Under the pieces are notes generated by a model, which was given only the letters and a program-made list of their open reading frames with translations, made no database searches and was not told the DNA's origin. 35,444 nt of DNA from Candidatus Terraquivivens yellowstonensis (GTDB lineage: Archaea; Thermoproteota; Nitrososphaeria_A; Caldarchaeales; Wolframiiraptoraceae). Positions 3,804 to 9,821 of this stretch are shown in pieces. The position numbers and the translations under genes were made by a program. Each line of letters starts with the position of its first letter. The first letter of the stretch is position 1. Where the stretch lies: the NCBI GenBank assembly GCA_023539445.1, contig JAKCEW010000009.1, forward strand, positions 1-35,444. Reading direction: 5' to 3'.

Positions 3804-5216
3804 TCAAACCCACTCTGTGTGAAAAGTTCCCGGCTTATCTATTCTCTCATATCCGTGTGCACCAAAGCGATCCCTCAATGCCTGTATGAGGTTTGCAGGT
3901 AAACGTTCGCGCCTAAAGCTGTCAAAGTAGTCCAAGGCAGAAGTTATTGCAGGACATGGAATGCCACTAAGCTTTGCCGTACTTACGAATGACCTCCATT
4001 CCACTTGCCTATCGCACAATTCTTTTGCATAAGAACTATCGAGCAGAAGGTTTGTTAGGTTCGGTCTTCTTGAGTAAACATCCATTATCATGTTGAGCAG
4101 CCTCGCTCTTATGATGCATCCACCCCTCCATATCTTGGCCACATCTCCAAGCTTTGTGGCGTAGCCGAATTCCTTCGAGGCTGTAAATATGAGGGACATA
4201 CCCTGAGCGAATGCTATTAGCATCGTGCAATACAGAGAAGACCTTGCCGCATTTATAAGAGACGGTTTGTCCACATGCCTTACATCCGCTGCATATTTTA
4301 TGATTTTGGATGCCGTAACTCTTTCCTCTTTCAAAGATGATAGGTTTCTTGCAGAAACCGCAGCATCAATTGTAGGTATAGGCACACCCAAGTCCATTGC
4401 TGTCTGCGATGTCCACTTTCCAGTTCCCTTCTGGCCTGCCTTGTCCAATATTAGCTCAACGAGAGGCATCTTGGTCTCCTCATCCACCTTTGTCAAAACC
4501 CCGGAGGCTATCTCTAAGAGAAAAGAGTTTAGTTCACCAGCGTTCCAATCGGCAAATATTTTCGAAATACTCGTGGCATCCAACCCAAGCAATGTCATAA
4601 AGGTATCGTAAACCTCCGCTATGGCTTGCATTATCGCATATTCAATACCATTATGCACCATTTTCACAAAGTGGCCGGCGCCACCAGGCCCCATGTAGCC
4701 GTAGCACGCTTCACCCTCAACCTTTGCTGCAATCTTTACGAATATAGGCCTCATGAGTTCTTCAGCCTCAGGAGGACCACCTGCCATTATACAAGGCCCC
4801 TTCAACGCACCTTCCTCACCACCACTTATTCCAACACCCATGAAATGAACACCGCGCTCTCCCAGCTTTTTCATCCTTCTTTCGGTATCCTTGAAGTGTG
4901 AATTACCACCATCCACTACCACATCTCCCGGCTCAAGCCATACCATCAGTTGGTTGAGAAATTCATCGACCGCTTCGCCTGCCTTAACCATCAATATTAT
5001 CCTACGGGGTTTGTTAAGATATTTGACGAAATCCTCCAACGAGAAGTGTGCAGATATGTTTTTCCCCTTCGCCCTATGCTCCATAAATGCTTTGGTCTTA
5101 TCTGCGGTTCTGTTGTAAACTGATACAACAAACCCTTTGTCCTCGATGTTGAGAGCAAGGTTAGCACCCATAGTCGCGAGCCCTATGAGCCCTACATCTG
5201 ACCCCTGCATAACCAT
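3804..5216 (-). CDS. gnd: 6-phosphogluconate dehydrogenase, decarboxylating
   Basis: A 470-residue full-length, long-form enzyme, converting 6-phosphogluconate plus NAD(P)+ to ribulose 5-phosphate plus CO2. The Rossmann fingerprint 'GLIGLATMGANLALN' (9-23) is followed by NRT at 35-37, the arrangement usual for NADP+. The signature 'GVGISGGEEGALKGP' is at 127-141. Catalytic K185, H188-N189 and E192 all appear in 'KMVHNGIE', and the C-terminal substrate segment is intact. Most Archaea lack the oxidative pentose phosphate pathway and make pentoses by the reverse ribulose-monophosphate route, so a long bacterial-type Gnd is notable. It is divergent from a tandem SIS isomerase gene, with an FGD-like F420 enzyme next. 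Start ATG 5216 is used; ATG 5210 is possible. Confidence 0.96.
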   Translation of the reverse strand: MVMQGSDVGLIGLATMGANLALNIEDKGFVVSVYNRTADKTKAFMEHRAKGKNISAHFSLEDFVKYLNKPRRIILMVKAGEAVDEFLNQLMVWLEPGDVVVDGGNSHFKDTERRMKKLGERGVHFMGVGISGGEEGALKGPCIMAGGPPEAEELMRPIFVKIAAKVEGEACYGYMGPGGAGHFVKMVHNGIEYAIMQAIAEVYDTFMTLLGLDATSISKIFADWNAGELNSFLLEIASGVLTKVDEETKMPLVELILDKAGQKGTGKWTSQTAMDLGVPIPTIDAAVSARNLSSLKEERVTASKIIKYAADVRHVDKPSLINAARSSLYCTMLIAFAQGMSLIFTASKEFGYATKLGDVAKIWRGGCIIRARLLNMIMDVYSRRPNLTNLLLDSSYAKELCDRQVEWRSFVSTAKLSGIPCPAITSALDYFDSFRRERLPANLIQALRDRFGAHGYERIDKPGTFHTEWV

Positions 5217-5274
5217 ATTTGTTCTTCAAGGTAGCAAAAAAAGCTTATCGCAACCAGAATGGTGGGTTAACGTA

Positions 5275-5285
5275 AAACTATAATT
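5275..5285 (+). promoter_or_regulatory. TATA-like box for the tandem-SIS gene
   Basis: AACTATAATTC in the 98-base divergent gap between gnd and the SIS gene, about 35 bases before ATG 5315. The opposite strand of the same gap holds an A/T-rich run suited to gnd, so the two may be co-controlled from this gap. Confidence 0.4.
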
Positions 5286-5314
5286 CCAACCTTTCTTCAT
5301 AGATTTCGAGAGAC

Positions 5315-6472
5315 ATGACCCAGACCGTTAGTAGCTTAGGTTATATTAACAGGATATTTCAAAATATAGAGCTCGTTGACGCAACGCAACAGGAGAACTT
5401 CTATTATAGCCTCGTGAAGAGCGGCGTGATAATCCCGTCGGCCGAGGGGAGGTCCAAGGGCGCGCTCAGCATAATATGCAGCGAAATGGCCAAGATGAGC
5501 AAGGGAAAGATAATAGTGGACAGGAGCGACCTTGGTTTTCCAGGAAGGAGCATTTCCGAGGCGGCACCAATCCTAAAGCGCAGATATGGTTACGTAAGTC
5601 TACTGATAAACAGCGGCAGTGGAAAATCACTCATGCCCCTTATAGATGCTCAGAGCATGGCCCTTTACATCGAAAAGACCGGAGATGTAAAAAACTTCAG
5701 CATAGACGTCATGACCTCGGACGCCAGCTCACCGATAGGAAAGCTCGGTGAAAAATATGGAAACGTGCTCATAATCAAGGGACGGGAGGAGAACAAAAGG
5801 GCAGAGGGCGAGGCAAGAGAGTTCCAAGCTCATGGCATACTAGAAGACGTGTTCATCTTGGGTAGCATGGTATTGCTTTACGGCATGGCATGCGCCATGA
5901 ACGATGATAAGCCAGCCGAGAAGATACAAGATTACGTGCGTCCACTTTCAGTAGAGATAGGCAGCATGGTAGATGACATCATCAAGTCAAAATTCTTTGA
6001 ATTCTTGTTAAATAATCTGGAGGAGAGGAAGGCATGCTTCTTTGCCGGTCTTGGTAGCGGTCAGGAAGTTGCTAGGATGACCGCCGTAAGGGTTGGACAT
6101 GTGAAGAGGGCGATAGGCGATCATGTATACGTTGCGGGCGAGTCGAGCACACCTGCTCCAAGGGCCGGTGACATTTTGATAGTTATTTCTCAAAGCGGTG
6201 AGACCGAAATAGTCCTGAGTTGGTGCAAGAACTTCAAAAGGCTCGGCGGTAAGATTGCCGCCATAGTGGGAAGAGCTGGTTCTACGCTACAATCAATTGC
6301 CGATGAATCGTATGTAATAAGTGGTGAGAGGACTCCTGGCAAGCCCAGCGATTTTTACGTCAAGGCAGCGTTCGCACTTAGCCCCTTGCCCATATACCTA
6401 GTTAGCCGTATCGAGGAACGTGGTCTGAAGCTCCCCGAATACATACTCAGATGGTACCATTCAGTGATGTGA
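5315..6472 (+). CDS. Tandem SIS-domain sugar-phosphate isomerase-like protein
   Basis: A 385-residue protein with two SIS (sugar isomerase) domains. The N-terminal one (about 30-195) contains EGRS at 44-47 and a serine-rich 'NSGSGKS' at 99-105. The C-terminal one (about 215-365) contains 'FFAGLGSG' at 242-249, 'GESSTP' at 275-280 and 'ISQSGET' at 291-297. The C-terminal half resembles 3-hexulose-6-phosphate isomerase (PHI, 'VGETxTP...ISGSGxT'); the N-terminal half is more diverged but keeps the same order of elements. PHI and archaeal phosphoglucose/phosphomannose isomerases act on fructose 6-phosphate, which suits the gnd and F420-enzyme neighbours. A single-chain doubled PHI-like protein is unusual. 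Which sugar it uses is inference; bifunctional PGI/PMI is the alternative. Confidence 0.75.
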   Translation: MTQTVSSLGYINRIFQNIELVDATQQENFYYSLVKSGVIIPSAEGRSKGALSIICSEMAKMSKGKIIVDRSDLGFPGRSISEAAPILKRRYGYVSLLINSGSGKSLMPLIDAQSMALYIEKTGDVKNFSIDVMTSDASSPIGKLGEKYGNVLIIKGREENKRAEGEAREFQAHGILEDVFILGSMVLLYGMACAMNDDKPAEKIQDYVRPLSVEIGSMVDDIIKSKFFEFLLNNLEERKACFFAGLGSGQEVARMTAVRVGHVKRAIGDHVYVAGESSTPAPRAGDILIVISQSGETEIVLSWCKNFKRLGGKIAAIVGRAGSTLQSIADESYVISGERTPGKPSDFYVKAAFALSPLPIYLVSRIEERGLKLPEYILRWYHSVM

Positions 6473-6473
6473 G

Positions 6474-7514
6474 CTACTCAACAACTTTCCTTATAGGTTT
6501 ATCCAACATTTCGTGGAATTCCCTCATCCAGGGTAGCACGTCCCTTCCAAGGATGCTGATGAACTTTTCCTCATCTGGGCTAGCGCTGTGTATATATACT
6601 ATGTCGAGCCTCAGTTTAAGGAACTCCGCAAGCTCTTTGAATATATCGTCTGTATCCGTCGTAATAAGCCAAGTTCTTTTGATTTTTTCTACCTCTTCTG
6701 GGCCAACGTTGGCCTCCAGATCTCTCGGGTCGTAAAGCTTTTCCCGTTTCTCCCTCGGTATAGCCGTTGATGCCCAGAACAGTGCAGAGTTCAATGCCCT
6801 GTCATAATCCACGTCGTATGATACTTTGAACTCCATAGACTTTACAAGTGTTGAAGGATCTCTTCCTGCCTCTATTGCAGCCTTCTCCATAGCACGAACT
6901 ATTTCGTAGTATTTCTCGAGACCCCTAGGATTTATTAACATACCGTCACAAAGCCTTCCGGCGATCTTCGCAACCCTTGGACATGCTGATGCCACATAAA
7001 TCGGTATCTTCGTCTTCGGTTTTGTGTACAGCTTCGCGTTACTCAGTCTGTAGTACTTCCCCTCAAAGTTTACGAAGTCACCCTTCCATAGCTCTAGTAT
7101 TATTTTGATGGCTTCCTCAAGCCTCCCGACCTTCTCTTCAAAGCTTGGCCATTCAAACCCCAAAGGTTTCTCGTTCATCGCATGACCCGTGCCGACAGTC
7201 AAGAACACTCTACCAGGATACATGTAATCTAGCGTTGCAAAAGCTTGGGCCACGATTGCCGGATGATACCTAAACATCGGCGTGGTCACGGCAGTACCTA
7301 CTTGAACCCTCTTCGTTCTTTCTGCAACCGCTGCAAGCCAGACCCATGGGAAACCTGACTGTCCACCGGTGTCACGCCATGGATGGAAGTGGTCACTCGT
7401 GGCTATTATGTCAAAACCTGCAACCTCTGCCCTGACTGCAAAGTCCAACAAACGGACTGGGTCGTATTGTTCTTGCGCCGCCCAATAACCCAATCTAAGC
7501 GCTCTCATATCCAT
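6474..7514 (-). CDS. F420-dependent LLM-family oxidoreductase, FGD/Adf-like
   Basis: A 346-residue luciferase-like TIM-barrel enzyme that uses coenzyme F420. The N-terminal half follows mycobacterial F420-dependent glucose-6-phosphate dehydrogenase closely: 'LGYWAAQEQYDP', 'SDHFHPW' (H42 and W46, equivalent to catalytic H40/W44), 'FRYHPAIVAQAFAT' and 'YPGRVFLTVGTG'. The residue equivalent to FGD Glu109 (GTGE) is histidine, H111. The FGD phosphate-binding basic residues seem only partly kept, so the substrate may be a different sugar or an alcohol (Adf-type). Its 3' end abuts the SIS gene (one base apart, convergent), and gnd lies beyond. No Shine-Dalgarno is seen; a TATA-like box at 7535-7546 suggests a leaderless start at ATG 7514. 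Confidence 0.85.
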   Translation of the reverse strand: MDMRALRLGYWAAQEQYDPVRLLDFAVRAEVAGFDIIATSDHFHPWRDTGGQSGFPWVWLAAVAERTKRVQVGTAVTTPMFRYHPAIVAQAFATLDYMYPGRVFLTVGTGHAMNEKPLGFEWPSFEEKVGRLEEAIKIILELWKGDFVNFEGKYYRLSNAKLYTKPKTKIPIYVASACPRVAKIAGRLCDGMLINPRGLEKYYEIVRAMEKAAIEAGRDPSTLVKSMEFKVSYDVDYDRALNSALFWASTAIPREKREKLYDPRDLEANVGPEEVEKIKRTWLITTDTDDIFKELAEFLKLRLDIVYIHSASPDEEKFISILGRDVLPWMREFHEMLDKPIRKVVE

Positions 7515-7534
7515 CTTACCATAAGCGATCAGAC

Positions 7535-7546
7535 CTTATTTATTCT
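7535..7546 (-). promoter_or_regulatory. TATA-like box for the FGD-like gene
   Basis: The minus strand reads GAATAAATAAGG, centred about 26 bases before ATG 7514, as expected for a leaderless archaeal transcript. Confidence 0.5.
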
Positions 7547-7616
7547 TACTTATAAATCCTAATATAAAATAACTAATATTTTACCAAAGGCGTGCTAGTT
7601 AAATCGGGTCAGGCCT

Positions 7617-8273
7617 ATGTTCATACTGCTTTCGCATAAGCTCAGCACAACGACGCCTGCATATGCCAAGGGTCCAGGTCTCACGCTGAAGCCCTTAAAG
7701 CAAATAACCAAAGGTGACAGCAGCAACAGCTACCTAATAGAAATGCCAAACCATTTGGGAACGCATATAGACGCCCCCCGACATTTCGATCCTTTTGGCC
7801 ATGCAATAGCAGATTATGGGATAGAAAGCCTAACGTTTAGAAGACCGTTGTTGCTTAACATACCGAAGCAAGATTCAGAGCTCATCATGTCTGAGGATTT
7901 GGAGGCGTATAAGGAGAAGATCGCAGAATCTGACATACTTTTAATAAAGACCGGCTTCCAGAGGTTCAGGACATCCGATCCCGAAAGGTATAGCATGCAT
8001 AACCCAGGCCTTTCTTCAGATGCCGCCAGCTACATCGTTAAGAACTTTCCAAAGCTTAGGGCCTTGGGCTTGGACACAATATCCCTGTCTTCCGTTGACC
8101 ATAGGGAGGACGGTAGGCTTTCGCACAAGATATTGCTGAGTGGTCGGGATTTCTTCATTATAGAGGATATGGACCTTTCCAAGCTCTTTGAAAGCCCAAA
8201 AATGGTAATAGTCTTGCCTCTCTTCATAGAGGGCATTGATAGCGCACCCTGTGTCGTGCTTGCCGAAGTTTAG
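7617..8273 (+). CDS. Cyclase-family (kynurenine-formamidase-like) metal-dependent hydrolase
   Basis: A 218-residue protein of the cyclase family (PF04199). The metal-binding signature HxGTHxDxPxHF is complete, with H46, H50, D52 and H56 in 'NHLGTHIDAPRHF'. Relatives hydrolyse N-formylkynurenine, isatin or cyclic amides and esters, or act as polyketide-like cyclases. No tryptophan-catabolism genes are nearby. It is divergent from the FGD-like gene across 102 bases. That position makes it a speculative candidate for opening a sugar lactone, a step otherwise missing between an FGD-like enzyme and Gnd. The family call is firm and the function is open. ATG 7617 has a TATA-like ATATTTTACC at about 7576-7585. 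Confidence 0.82.
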   Translation: MFILLSHKLSTTTPAYAKGPGLTLKPLKQITKGDSSNSYLIEMPNHLGTHIDAPRHFDPFGHAIADYGIESLTFRRPLLLNIPKQDSELIMSEDLEAYKEKIAESDILLIKTGFQRFRTSDPERYSMHNPGLSSDAASYIVKNFPKLRALGLDTISLSSVDHREDGRLSHKILLSGRDFFIIEDMDLSKLFESPKMVIVLPLFIEGIDSAPCVVLAEV

Positions 8274-8423: not shown

Positions 8424-9821
8424 ATGGGACCGGTTATCCTCGATTCAACGTTGCGCGAAGGTCAGCTTTATAAGATTTTTAGCCGTGAGGTTAACAAGCA
8501 GATAGCTGTTCAGCTAGCGGAGATAAACATTCCAAGGATAGAGTTGACGGTTGATTATCCACCTAGGACCACGTACGAGGATGTTGCGTGCATTATAGAT
8601 GCGCTGAGCCCTTACGACGTAGAGGTTGTAATGCACGGCAGGGCCTATCAAAGGGATATAGAGGCTATGAGCAAGTACGACATCGAAGGTTGTGCCCTCT
8701 ATCTTGCACCAACAGACATCCATAGAGAGTATAAGCTGGGCGGCATATCTTATGAGGAAGCCGTTCGGAGAATGGAGGAATCAATAGAGTTAGCAAAATC
8801 CTTCGGTTTCAAGTACATAAGAGCGACAGTAGAGGATGCGAGCAGGTTTTACTTAGAGGGCCCAGCTGGTATGGAGAGACTTGTGAAGCTTATTGACTTA
8901 TTGGGCGATGTTGGCGCCAGCTTGGTCAGCATACCGGATACTGCTGGCATGTTATCTCCAGCCCAGGCCAGAGACTTTGTGTCGAAGGTAAAGCAAAAAT
9001 GCAAGACCCCAATAGCATGCCACTTCCACAACGACTACGGTTACGCCTCAGCCAACACTGTCGAGGCAGCGGCCGAGGGCGCGGATGAGGTGCATGTATG
9101 TATACTCGGAATTGGTGATAGGAACGGAATTGCCGACCTCTACGAGGTCGTTGCAGGACTGGAGGATTTATACAACATAAGCACCGGTGTGAAGCGGGAG
9201 GCTATTTCTAAGCTTTATGAAAAATTTTCAAAGCTTACAGGCATAAGACCCTACTTTTCTCATCCGCTTTCGAAAGAGGCGAGGACTGTCAGAGCGGGCG
9301 TGCATCAATCTATGGTCGTTAAGATGCCGAAGGGATACGTTCCTGAAAAGAAGCTGATATATGACTTCAACGGAAGTCTCATGTTTGAAGCTACTCCATA
9401 CTTGAGCCACAAGATTGTTGAGAAACTCCTATCAAAATACGGAATCAAGGATGATGAGGCAAAGAGAATTACAGAAATTCTCGCCTCCACCGCGAGCAGC
9501 AAAGGAAGAAAGCTTCTACCCTCAGAGGTTAGGGAGATTCTGGTTAACACAGGCATACCCGTCACGATGGAGGATGTCTCAAGTTTGTTCGGAGCGGAAA
9601 ATGCATATATCTTGATAAGGCTGAGGCCACAGTTCCCAGTATCGAAGATAATAAGCGAGCTTGTAGCATGGGATGGTGTGGAAAGTATTGATGAGGTTTA
9701 CGGCGATGTGGACATGATAATAAAGGCAAAGCTTTTGCCGGGTGATGATAACGTGGTCTCCCGCCTGAAGAAGACCTTTTCTGGCGTTGTAGAAGATGTT
9801 AAAGTCCTGATCACCGACTAA
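8424..9821 (+). CDS. Homocitrate synthase-like DRE-TIM enzyme with C-terminal RAM/ACT domain
   Basis: A 465-residue acetyl-CoA-dependent condensing enzyme of the isopropylmalate/homocitrate synthase family. The DRE-type start 'DSTLREGQ' (7-14) gives metal ligand D7 and catalytic R11. Metal ligands H200 and H202 with ND lie in 'CHFHND', followed by 'GIGDRNGI' and the communication-domain segment 'VHQSMVVK'. The last 75 residues or so ('AYILIRLRPQFPVSKIISELV...') form an Lrp-like RAM/ACT domain, as on homocitrate synthases of the alpha-aminoadipate lysine pathway in Sulfolobales. The likely reaction is 2-oxoglutarate plus acetyl-CoA to homocitrate. Citramalate or isopropylmalate synthase activity is possible, because no other lysine genes (lysWXYZ) are in the window. 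Its last 11 bases overlap the convergent thioredoxin-like gene. Confidence 0.85.
   Translation: MGPVILDSTLREGQLYKIFSREVNKQIAVQLAEINIPRIELTVDYPPRTTYEDVACIIDALSPYDVEVVMHGRAYQRDIEAMSKYDIEGCALYLAPTDIHREYKLGGISYEEAVRRMEESIELAKSFGFKYIRATVEDASRFYLEGPAGMERLVKLIDLLGDVGASLVSIPDTAGMLSPAQARDFVSKVKQKCKTPIACHFHNDYGYASANTVEAAAEGADEVHVCILGIGDRNGIADLYEVVAGLEDLYNISTGVKREAISKLYEKFSKLTGIRPYFSHPLSKEARTVRAGVHQSMVVKMPKGYVPEKKLIYDFNGSLMFEATPYLSHKIVEKLLSKYGIKDDEAKRITEILASTASSKGRKLLPSEVREILVNTGIPVTMEDVSSLFGAENAYILIRLRPQFPVSKIISELVAWDGVESIDEVYGDVDMIIKAKLLPGDDNVVSRLKKTFSGVVEDVKVLITD

Follow-up and report, generated by a model that had tools for sequence, protein, structure and literature searches.

A conserved cluster of four sugar-metabolism genes in Caldarchaeales and related archaea may encode an F420-linked oxidative pentose phosphate route

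Background

The classical oxidative pentose phosphate pathway employs Zwf, Pgl and Gnd. In the haloarchaeal pathway of Haloferax (PMC8506132), a short-chain-type glucose-6-phosphate dehydrogenase (G6PDH) replaces Zwf as an unrelated first enzyme, and Gnd is kept. The F420-dependent glucose-6-phosphate dehydrogenases (FGDs) bind phosphate through Lys198, Lys259 and Arg283, reportedly invariant among proteins that show this activity; in Rh-FGD1, mutation of any of the three raised the Km by two orders of magnitude, and loss of Arg283 nearly abolished activity (PMC5352752). Glu109 of FGD is the general acid that protonates F420 at N1 (PMC11448927), and Lys232 of FGD1 contributes to binding of the inhibitor citrate (PMC3859598). 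Among archaea, Fgd has been entered with a query mark for Thaumarchaeota (PMC8498797), and many FGD-annotated copies have been reported for Gagatemarchaeaceae (PMC10640624). The oxidative pentose phosphate pathway was described as 'incomplete' in three metagenome-assembled genomes (MAGs) of Caldarchaeales (PMC10547907); the same study reports a bifunctional HPS/PHI for a single MAG of the order, that of Pelearchaeum maunauluense.

We found four sugar-metabolism genes that stay together in hot-spring Caldarchaeales and also in some deep lineages resembling Thaumarchaeota, a set of which no published description was found within the PMC literature searched. The cluster may constitute an F420-linked oxidative pentose phosphate route, a reading for and against which we consider the chances to be even. 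Such a route would resemble the classical pathway in the order of its steps (oxidation, then opening of the lactone, then oxidative decarboxylation) and in its complete, homologous Gnd, whereas its first two steps would be carried out by unrelated families, its first acceptor would be F420, and the genome of the window has no PF02781 Zwf. With the haloarchaeal pathway it would share an unrelated first enzyme and the retained Gnd, but that first enzyme would be LLM-type and F420-linked rather than a short-chain dehydrogenase.

Gene layout and proposed route

The window, by which we mean the whole stretch of 35,444 nucleotides that was analysed, comes from a 1.16-Mb Terraquivivens-like MAG (G000) of the order Caldarchaeales (formerly Aigarchaeota). 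The coordinates of the four open reading frames in a preliminary description of this DNA were confirmed, and all four are real genes, arranged as follows.

3804..5216, minus strand: gnd, NADP-type long-form 6-phosphogluconate dehydrogenase, 470 aa (TIGR00873, NRT motif, catalytic residues)
5217..5314, no strand: intergenic region of 98 bp, separating the start codons of gnd and SIS, which diverge from it (position)
5315..6472, plus strand: predicted tandem-SIS sugar-phosphate isomerase, 385 aa (PF01380, structure model)
6474..7514, minus strand: FGD-family LLM F420-dependent oxidoreductase of a distinct His109 clade, 346 aa (TIGR03557, tree, residue table)
7515..7616, no strand: intergenic region of 102 bp, common to the divergent LLM and hydrolase genes (sequence)
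7617..8273, plus strand: PF04199 metal-dependent hydrolase, proposed lactonase, 218 aa (PF04199, conserved metal site, structure model)

Because the strands alternate (minus, plus, minus, plus), with gnd/SIS and LLM/hydrolase as divergent pairs and SIS and LLM converging, the four adjacent genes do not form a single operon. Both promoters of the gnd/SIS pair are presumed, from position, to lie in the 98-bp region. TATA-like stretches were noticed in the LLM/hydrolase intergenic region of relatives (TTTATAAG in L052 and L053); this promoter reading and the search for a common motif were done by eye. An HMG-lyase/isopropylmalate-synthase-like gene at 8424-9821 was rejected as a module member, adjoining the hydrolase gene in Terraquivivens-group loci only.

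In the proposed route, the LLM enzyme would transfer hydride from C1 of a hexose 6-phosphate to F420, glucose 6-phosphate being the most likely substrate; the 6-phosphogluconolactone arising from this oxidation would be opened by the PF04199 metal hydrolase; Gnd, with NADP, would convert 6-phosphogluconate into ribulose 5-phosphate by oxidative decarboxylation; and the tandem-SIS protein would be a dedicated aldose/ketose-phosphate isomerase feeding or balancing the pool. In this scheme we infer the substrate of the LLM enzyme, the action of the hydrolase as a lactonase, the substrate of the SIS protein, and the actual production and use of F420.

Conservation and co-occurrence

The gene set, whose absence from relatives would count against a module, as the preliminary description had pointed out, is kept in relatives. 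All four genes occur together in three lineages, Terraquivivens, SKYB10 and Geothermarchaeota CSMAG_1319, with three-gene subsets elsewhere. The four-gene loci account for six of the 25 named LLM-clade loci (L052-L055 in the Terraquivivens group, L058 in SKYB10 and L072 in CSMAG_1319); in these six, the order and orientation of the hydrolase, LLM and SIS genes are constant, and the place and strand of gnd are variable, the gene lying beyond the hydrolase and on the opposite strand relative to LLM in L058 and L072. Across the 25 loci, of which several are on contigs that stop before the expected position, the hydrolase is present in 19, an adjacent SIS gene in 16 and gnd in 12. For example, Calditenuaceae have the arrangement hydrolase-LLM-gnd, and Caldarchaeum and two deep lineages (KW1-S08 and Centralia_MAG_457) have hydrolase-LLM-SIS. 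A distant LLM-PF04199 pair adjoins a KDPG aldolase gene in the Caldarchaeales genome G026 (L202, whose aldolase passes TIGR01182) and in Bathyarchaeota (L077, whose aldolase was recognised by eye from the sequence), again suggesting a tie of LLM and PF04199 to phosphorylated sugar acids.

Among 51 related genomes, an LLM orthologue was present in 24 and missing from 27. A full-length SIS orthologue was found in 24/24 of the LLM-bearing genomes versus 1/27 of those without LLM; the corresponding figures were 24/24 versus 3/27 for CofD, 23/24 versus 3/27 for gnd, and 23/24 versus 0/27 for the hydrolase, a 33%-identical homologue in G026 being left out of the last count. Fisher tests of each partner against LLM gave p < 1e-9, the genomes being related and the counts not phylogenetically independent. 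The set is jointly absent from roughly three lineages, namely other genera of the same family (although G007 has CofD and g5 has divergent Gnds), family f3 and genus g14. Canonical G6PDH (PF02781) had no match in any of the 51 genomes; gene absences here rest on MAGs and are not proof of absence.

An accidental adjacency of four functionally unrelated genes might be argued from the lack of a single operon and from the location of gnd away from LLM in the f4 family. We regard this as hardly credible, however, since adjacency is retained at 43-60% protein identity across separate families and lineages, more than chance would allow, and since presence and absence are tightly matched, including the three or so lineages without the whole set.

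6-Phosphogluconate dehydrogenase

The gnd product had been described as a complete long-form 6-phosphogluconate dehydrogenase, and our analyses bear this out. It scores 625.8 bits with TIGR00873 (cut-off 426.7) and 643.5 bits with NF006765 (cut-off 413), its closest solved structures are 6PGDHs (2w90, E 1.1e-173), and it carries both the NRT cofactor motif and each catalytic residue that was examined. In the 23 Gnds of LLM-bearing genomes the cofactor motif reads NR[TS] and none of the examined catalytic residues is missing, two catalytic positions being unreadable in the truncated L161 Gnd. In the three Gnds from genomes without LLM the motif is DK[VF], and two of the three have exchanged the catalytic Glu for Leu. 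An acidic residue at the Rossmann cofactor site favours NAD; judged by these residues, the three are not NADP-type. An NADP-type Gnd with an intact active site tracks the LLM enzyme, and therefore 6-phosphogluconate is indicated as an intermediate.

LLM oxidoreductase

The LLM protein had been taken for an F420 enzyme of the FGD/Adf type. Its placement in the TIGR03557 family (F420_G6P_family) stood, at 249.5 bits over a cut-off of 210.4, but membership in FGD did not, the FGD equivalog TIGR03554 being missed (304.2 bits versus a cut-off of 420) and Glu109 and the pocket being replaced. Its identity with the FGD1 structures 5lxe and 3b4y is in the 40% range, and a tree built from 89 LLM sequences places the window protein in one clade of 28 rows, supported at 100/100. 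The enzyme shares its fold and family with FGD and retains E13, H40, W44, E113 and K232 in 29/29 orthologues, but in all 29 distinct orthologues the Glu109 position is occupied by His, the Thr195 position by Asn, the Lys198 and Lys259 positions by Arg and the Arg283 position by Thr or Ser, where the match at Lys198 hinges on a one-residue gap in a loop and residue roles are transferred from FGD1. The 42 FGD-like sequences used for comparison have Lys198, Lys259 (one Arg), Arg283 and Glu109; as they were chosen by the TSG motif and Arg283, they agree there by construction, and the other positions played no part in the choice.

By score and by active-site residues, the LLM enzyme is not FGD, and its predicted active site is unlike that of every F420 glucose-6-phosphate dehydrogenase compared here. 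Because these score and residue tests fail, glucose 6-phosphate is a substrate that we infer. FGD annotations in archaea are unsafe unless the pocket residues are checked. The pocket stays basic, since Lys232 is kept and Arg occupies the Lys198 and Lys259 positions, and it would seem to be re-wired yet still suited to an anionic sugar. In our best reading of the sequence, the protein is proposed to be a divergent F420-dependent hexose-6-phosphate dehydrogenase.

The failed FGD tests would also fit an F420-dependent alcohol dehydrogenase or F420H2-dependent reductase acting on a non-sugar substrate, as do the relatives Adf and hydroxymycolic acid dehydrogenase (PMC3859598), with the link to Gnd being one of redox balance (NADPH and F420H2 supply) only. 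However, the protein keeps Lys232 and basic residues at 198 and 259, whereas Adf differs at 198 and 232; the genes around it all concern sugar phosphates or encode a hydrolase; and its own, fully supported clade lies apart from Adf, although the Adf branch is long. We therefore think a non-sugar substrate quite improbable.

Tandem-SIS protein

The SIS protein has a single Pfam SIS match (PF01380), located in its C-terminal half. The doubled SIS architecture claimed for it earlier is supported by the structure model (mean pLDDT 86), which aligns over the full length with tandem-SIS isomerases, namely GlmS isomerase domains and tagatose-6-phosphate isomerase, at an rmsd of about 6 A. Its C-terminal half is nearest to 6-phospho-3-hexuloisomerase (PHI), at 77.3 bits with TIGR03127, under the cut-off of 160. 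Thus, it shares the SIS fold with PHI and archaeal phosphoglucose isomerase (PGI) and is PHI-like in that half, but differs from them in having 385 aa and two SIS domains and in falling short of the PHI cut-off. The TIGR02128 PGI is a separate gene in 24/24 LLM-bearing genomes (50/51 genomes overall, two of them weakly), which rules out the SIS protein as the housekeeping PGI and makes it probably a second, module-specific isomerase. The role in hexose-phosphate supply first suggested for it has to be corrected to that of a dedicated enzyme beside the ordinary PGI.

The presence of this second isomerase, with its PHI-like half, suggests a non-standard sugar, and the LLM enzyme might have as its substrate a free sugar or some hexose phosphate other than glucose 6-phosphate, with the SIS protein making or draining that substrate and the 6-phosphogluconate used by Gnd coming from here or from elsewhere. 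The re-wired phosphate pocket (Arg/Arg/Thr-Ser, with Asn at Thr195) is consistent with this explanation, as is the slightly better use of glucose by Rh-FGD1 K197N (PMC5352752), but a standard NADP-type Gnd with an intact 6-phosphogluconate site tracks LLM, and we consider a different sugar somewhat unlikely.

PF04199 hydrolase

The fourth gene was correctly recognised as encoding a metal-dependent hydrolase: its product scores 90.4 bits with PF04199 'Cyclase' (over 23.1), and the metal-site residues H46, H50, D52, H56, H170 and E183 are invariant in 14 orthologues. Its predicted structure (pLDDT 94.6) resembles those of kynurenine formamidase and isatin hydrolase, both amide-bond cleavers, the bond of isatin lying within the ring. 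The protein matches PF04199 only, plus arylformamidase TIGR03035 below the cut-off. Family-profile matches gave no homology to a known 6-phosphogluconolactonase family, making the resemblance one of functional analogy only, and no PF04199 enzyme with known lactonase activity was found in this analysis. The gene context suggests that the hydrolase may be the missing lactonase, a role not explicit in the preliminary description.

F420 and ribulose 5-phosphate supply

Of the F420 biosynthesis genes that the preliminary description had proposed to look for, CofC, CofD and CofE are present, but the FO synthase CofG/CofH was not found. In G000, CofC scores 141.9 bits over a cut-off of 105 (L199:4454-5095), CofD and CofE exceed their cut-offs, and an FbiB-C-terminal-like nitroreductase adjoins CofD. 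CofG/CofH had no match in G000 or in any Terraquivivens genome, and their cut-offs were exceeded in only two of the 51 genomes (G035 and G046). The lack might be due to salvage of FO, to divergence of the synthase or to gaps in the MAGs, the last being unlikely because six Terraquivivens genomes are about 96-98% complete; these archaea may scavenge FO. A pathway that is complete in Caldarchaeales and related deep archaea, consisting of an F420 hexose-6-phosphate dehydrogenase with His for Glu and an Arg pocket, a PF04199 lactonase and an NADP-Gnd, and drawing its F420 from scavenged FO, can be put forward tentatively, with its chances somewhat short of even.

Hexulose-6-phosphate synthase (TIGR03128) scored over 200 bits in G000, G002 and G005 and weakly in G003, and had no match in the remaining LLM-bearing genomes, including all those outside Terraquivivens; this result and the lack of PF02781 G6PDH from the 51 genomes favour the proposed route.

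Implications

The route from glucose 6-phosphate to ribulose 5-phosphate sketched in the preliminary description is strengthened by conservation, co-occurrence and an intact Gnd, but its first enzyme can no longer be called FGD. Counting against the F420-linked route are the replacements of Glu109 by His and of Arg283 by Thr or Ser in every LLM orthologue, the missed TIGR03554, the separation of gnd from LLM in the f4 family and Calditenuis, and the missing FO synthase. If the route is real, His can stand in for the FGD general acid Glu109, and PF04199 would acquire a lactonase function. The module could complete the 'incomplete' oxidative pentose phosphate pathway of Caldarchaeales MAGs (PMC10547907) and could explain ribulose 5-phosphate synthesis in archaea without the usual first enzyme. 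Archaea lacking classical G6PDH, two families of which also show no hexulose-6-phosphate synthase, would then possess a definite path to ribulose 5-phosphate, with F420H2 and NADPH as further products.

Gene neighbours and related clusters

The PF04199 hydrolase gene is adjoined, only in the Terraquivivens group, by a gene (window 8424-9821) for a 465-aa HMGL-like protein resembling isopropylmalate and homocitrate synthases, which reached no family cut-off. In Calditenuaceae, gnd is directly adjoined by a gene for a 324-336-aa protein (locus L049, 6517-7527; locus L206, 9091-10065) related to the C-terminal domain of the lactate racemase LarA, and this gene stays beside gnd even where gnd no longer adjoins the LLM gene. 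Gnd homologues from genomes without the LLM (loci L149, L150 and L152 of genomes G012, G009 and G016, respectively) carry the cofactor motif DK[VF] rather than NR[TS], and in two of the three the catalytic Glu is replaced by Leu.

A separate LLM subfamily, retaining Glu109, is encoded in a cluster with the gene order LLM, PF04199 hydrolase, KDPG aldolase in Bathyarchaeota (locus L077, 73-2451) and the Caldarchaeales family f3 (locus L202, 6272-8715); this cluster is perhaps an F420-linked entry into the Entner-Doudoroff pathway.

F420 supply and use

CofC, CofD and CofE were found in the genome that contains the window (G000; locus L199, 4454-11055) and in its relatives, but CofG and CofH are absent from nearly all CofD-bearing Caldarchaeales, suggesting that these archaea scavenge FO or make it with an unknown synthase. 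In G000, a Mer-like LLM (L199, 18606-19613), which passed the model for 5,10-methylene-H4MPT reductase (NF002619; 313.8 bits, cut-off 276), may be a second F420 user.
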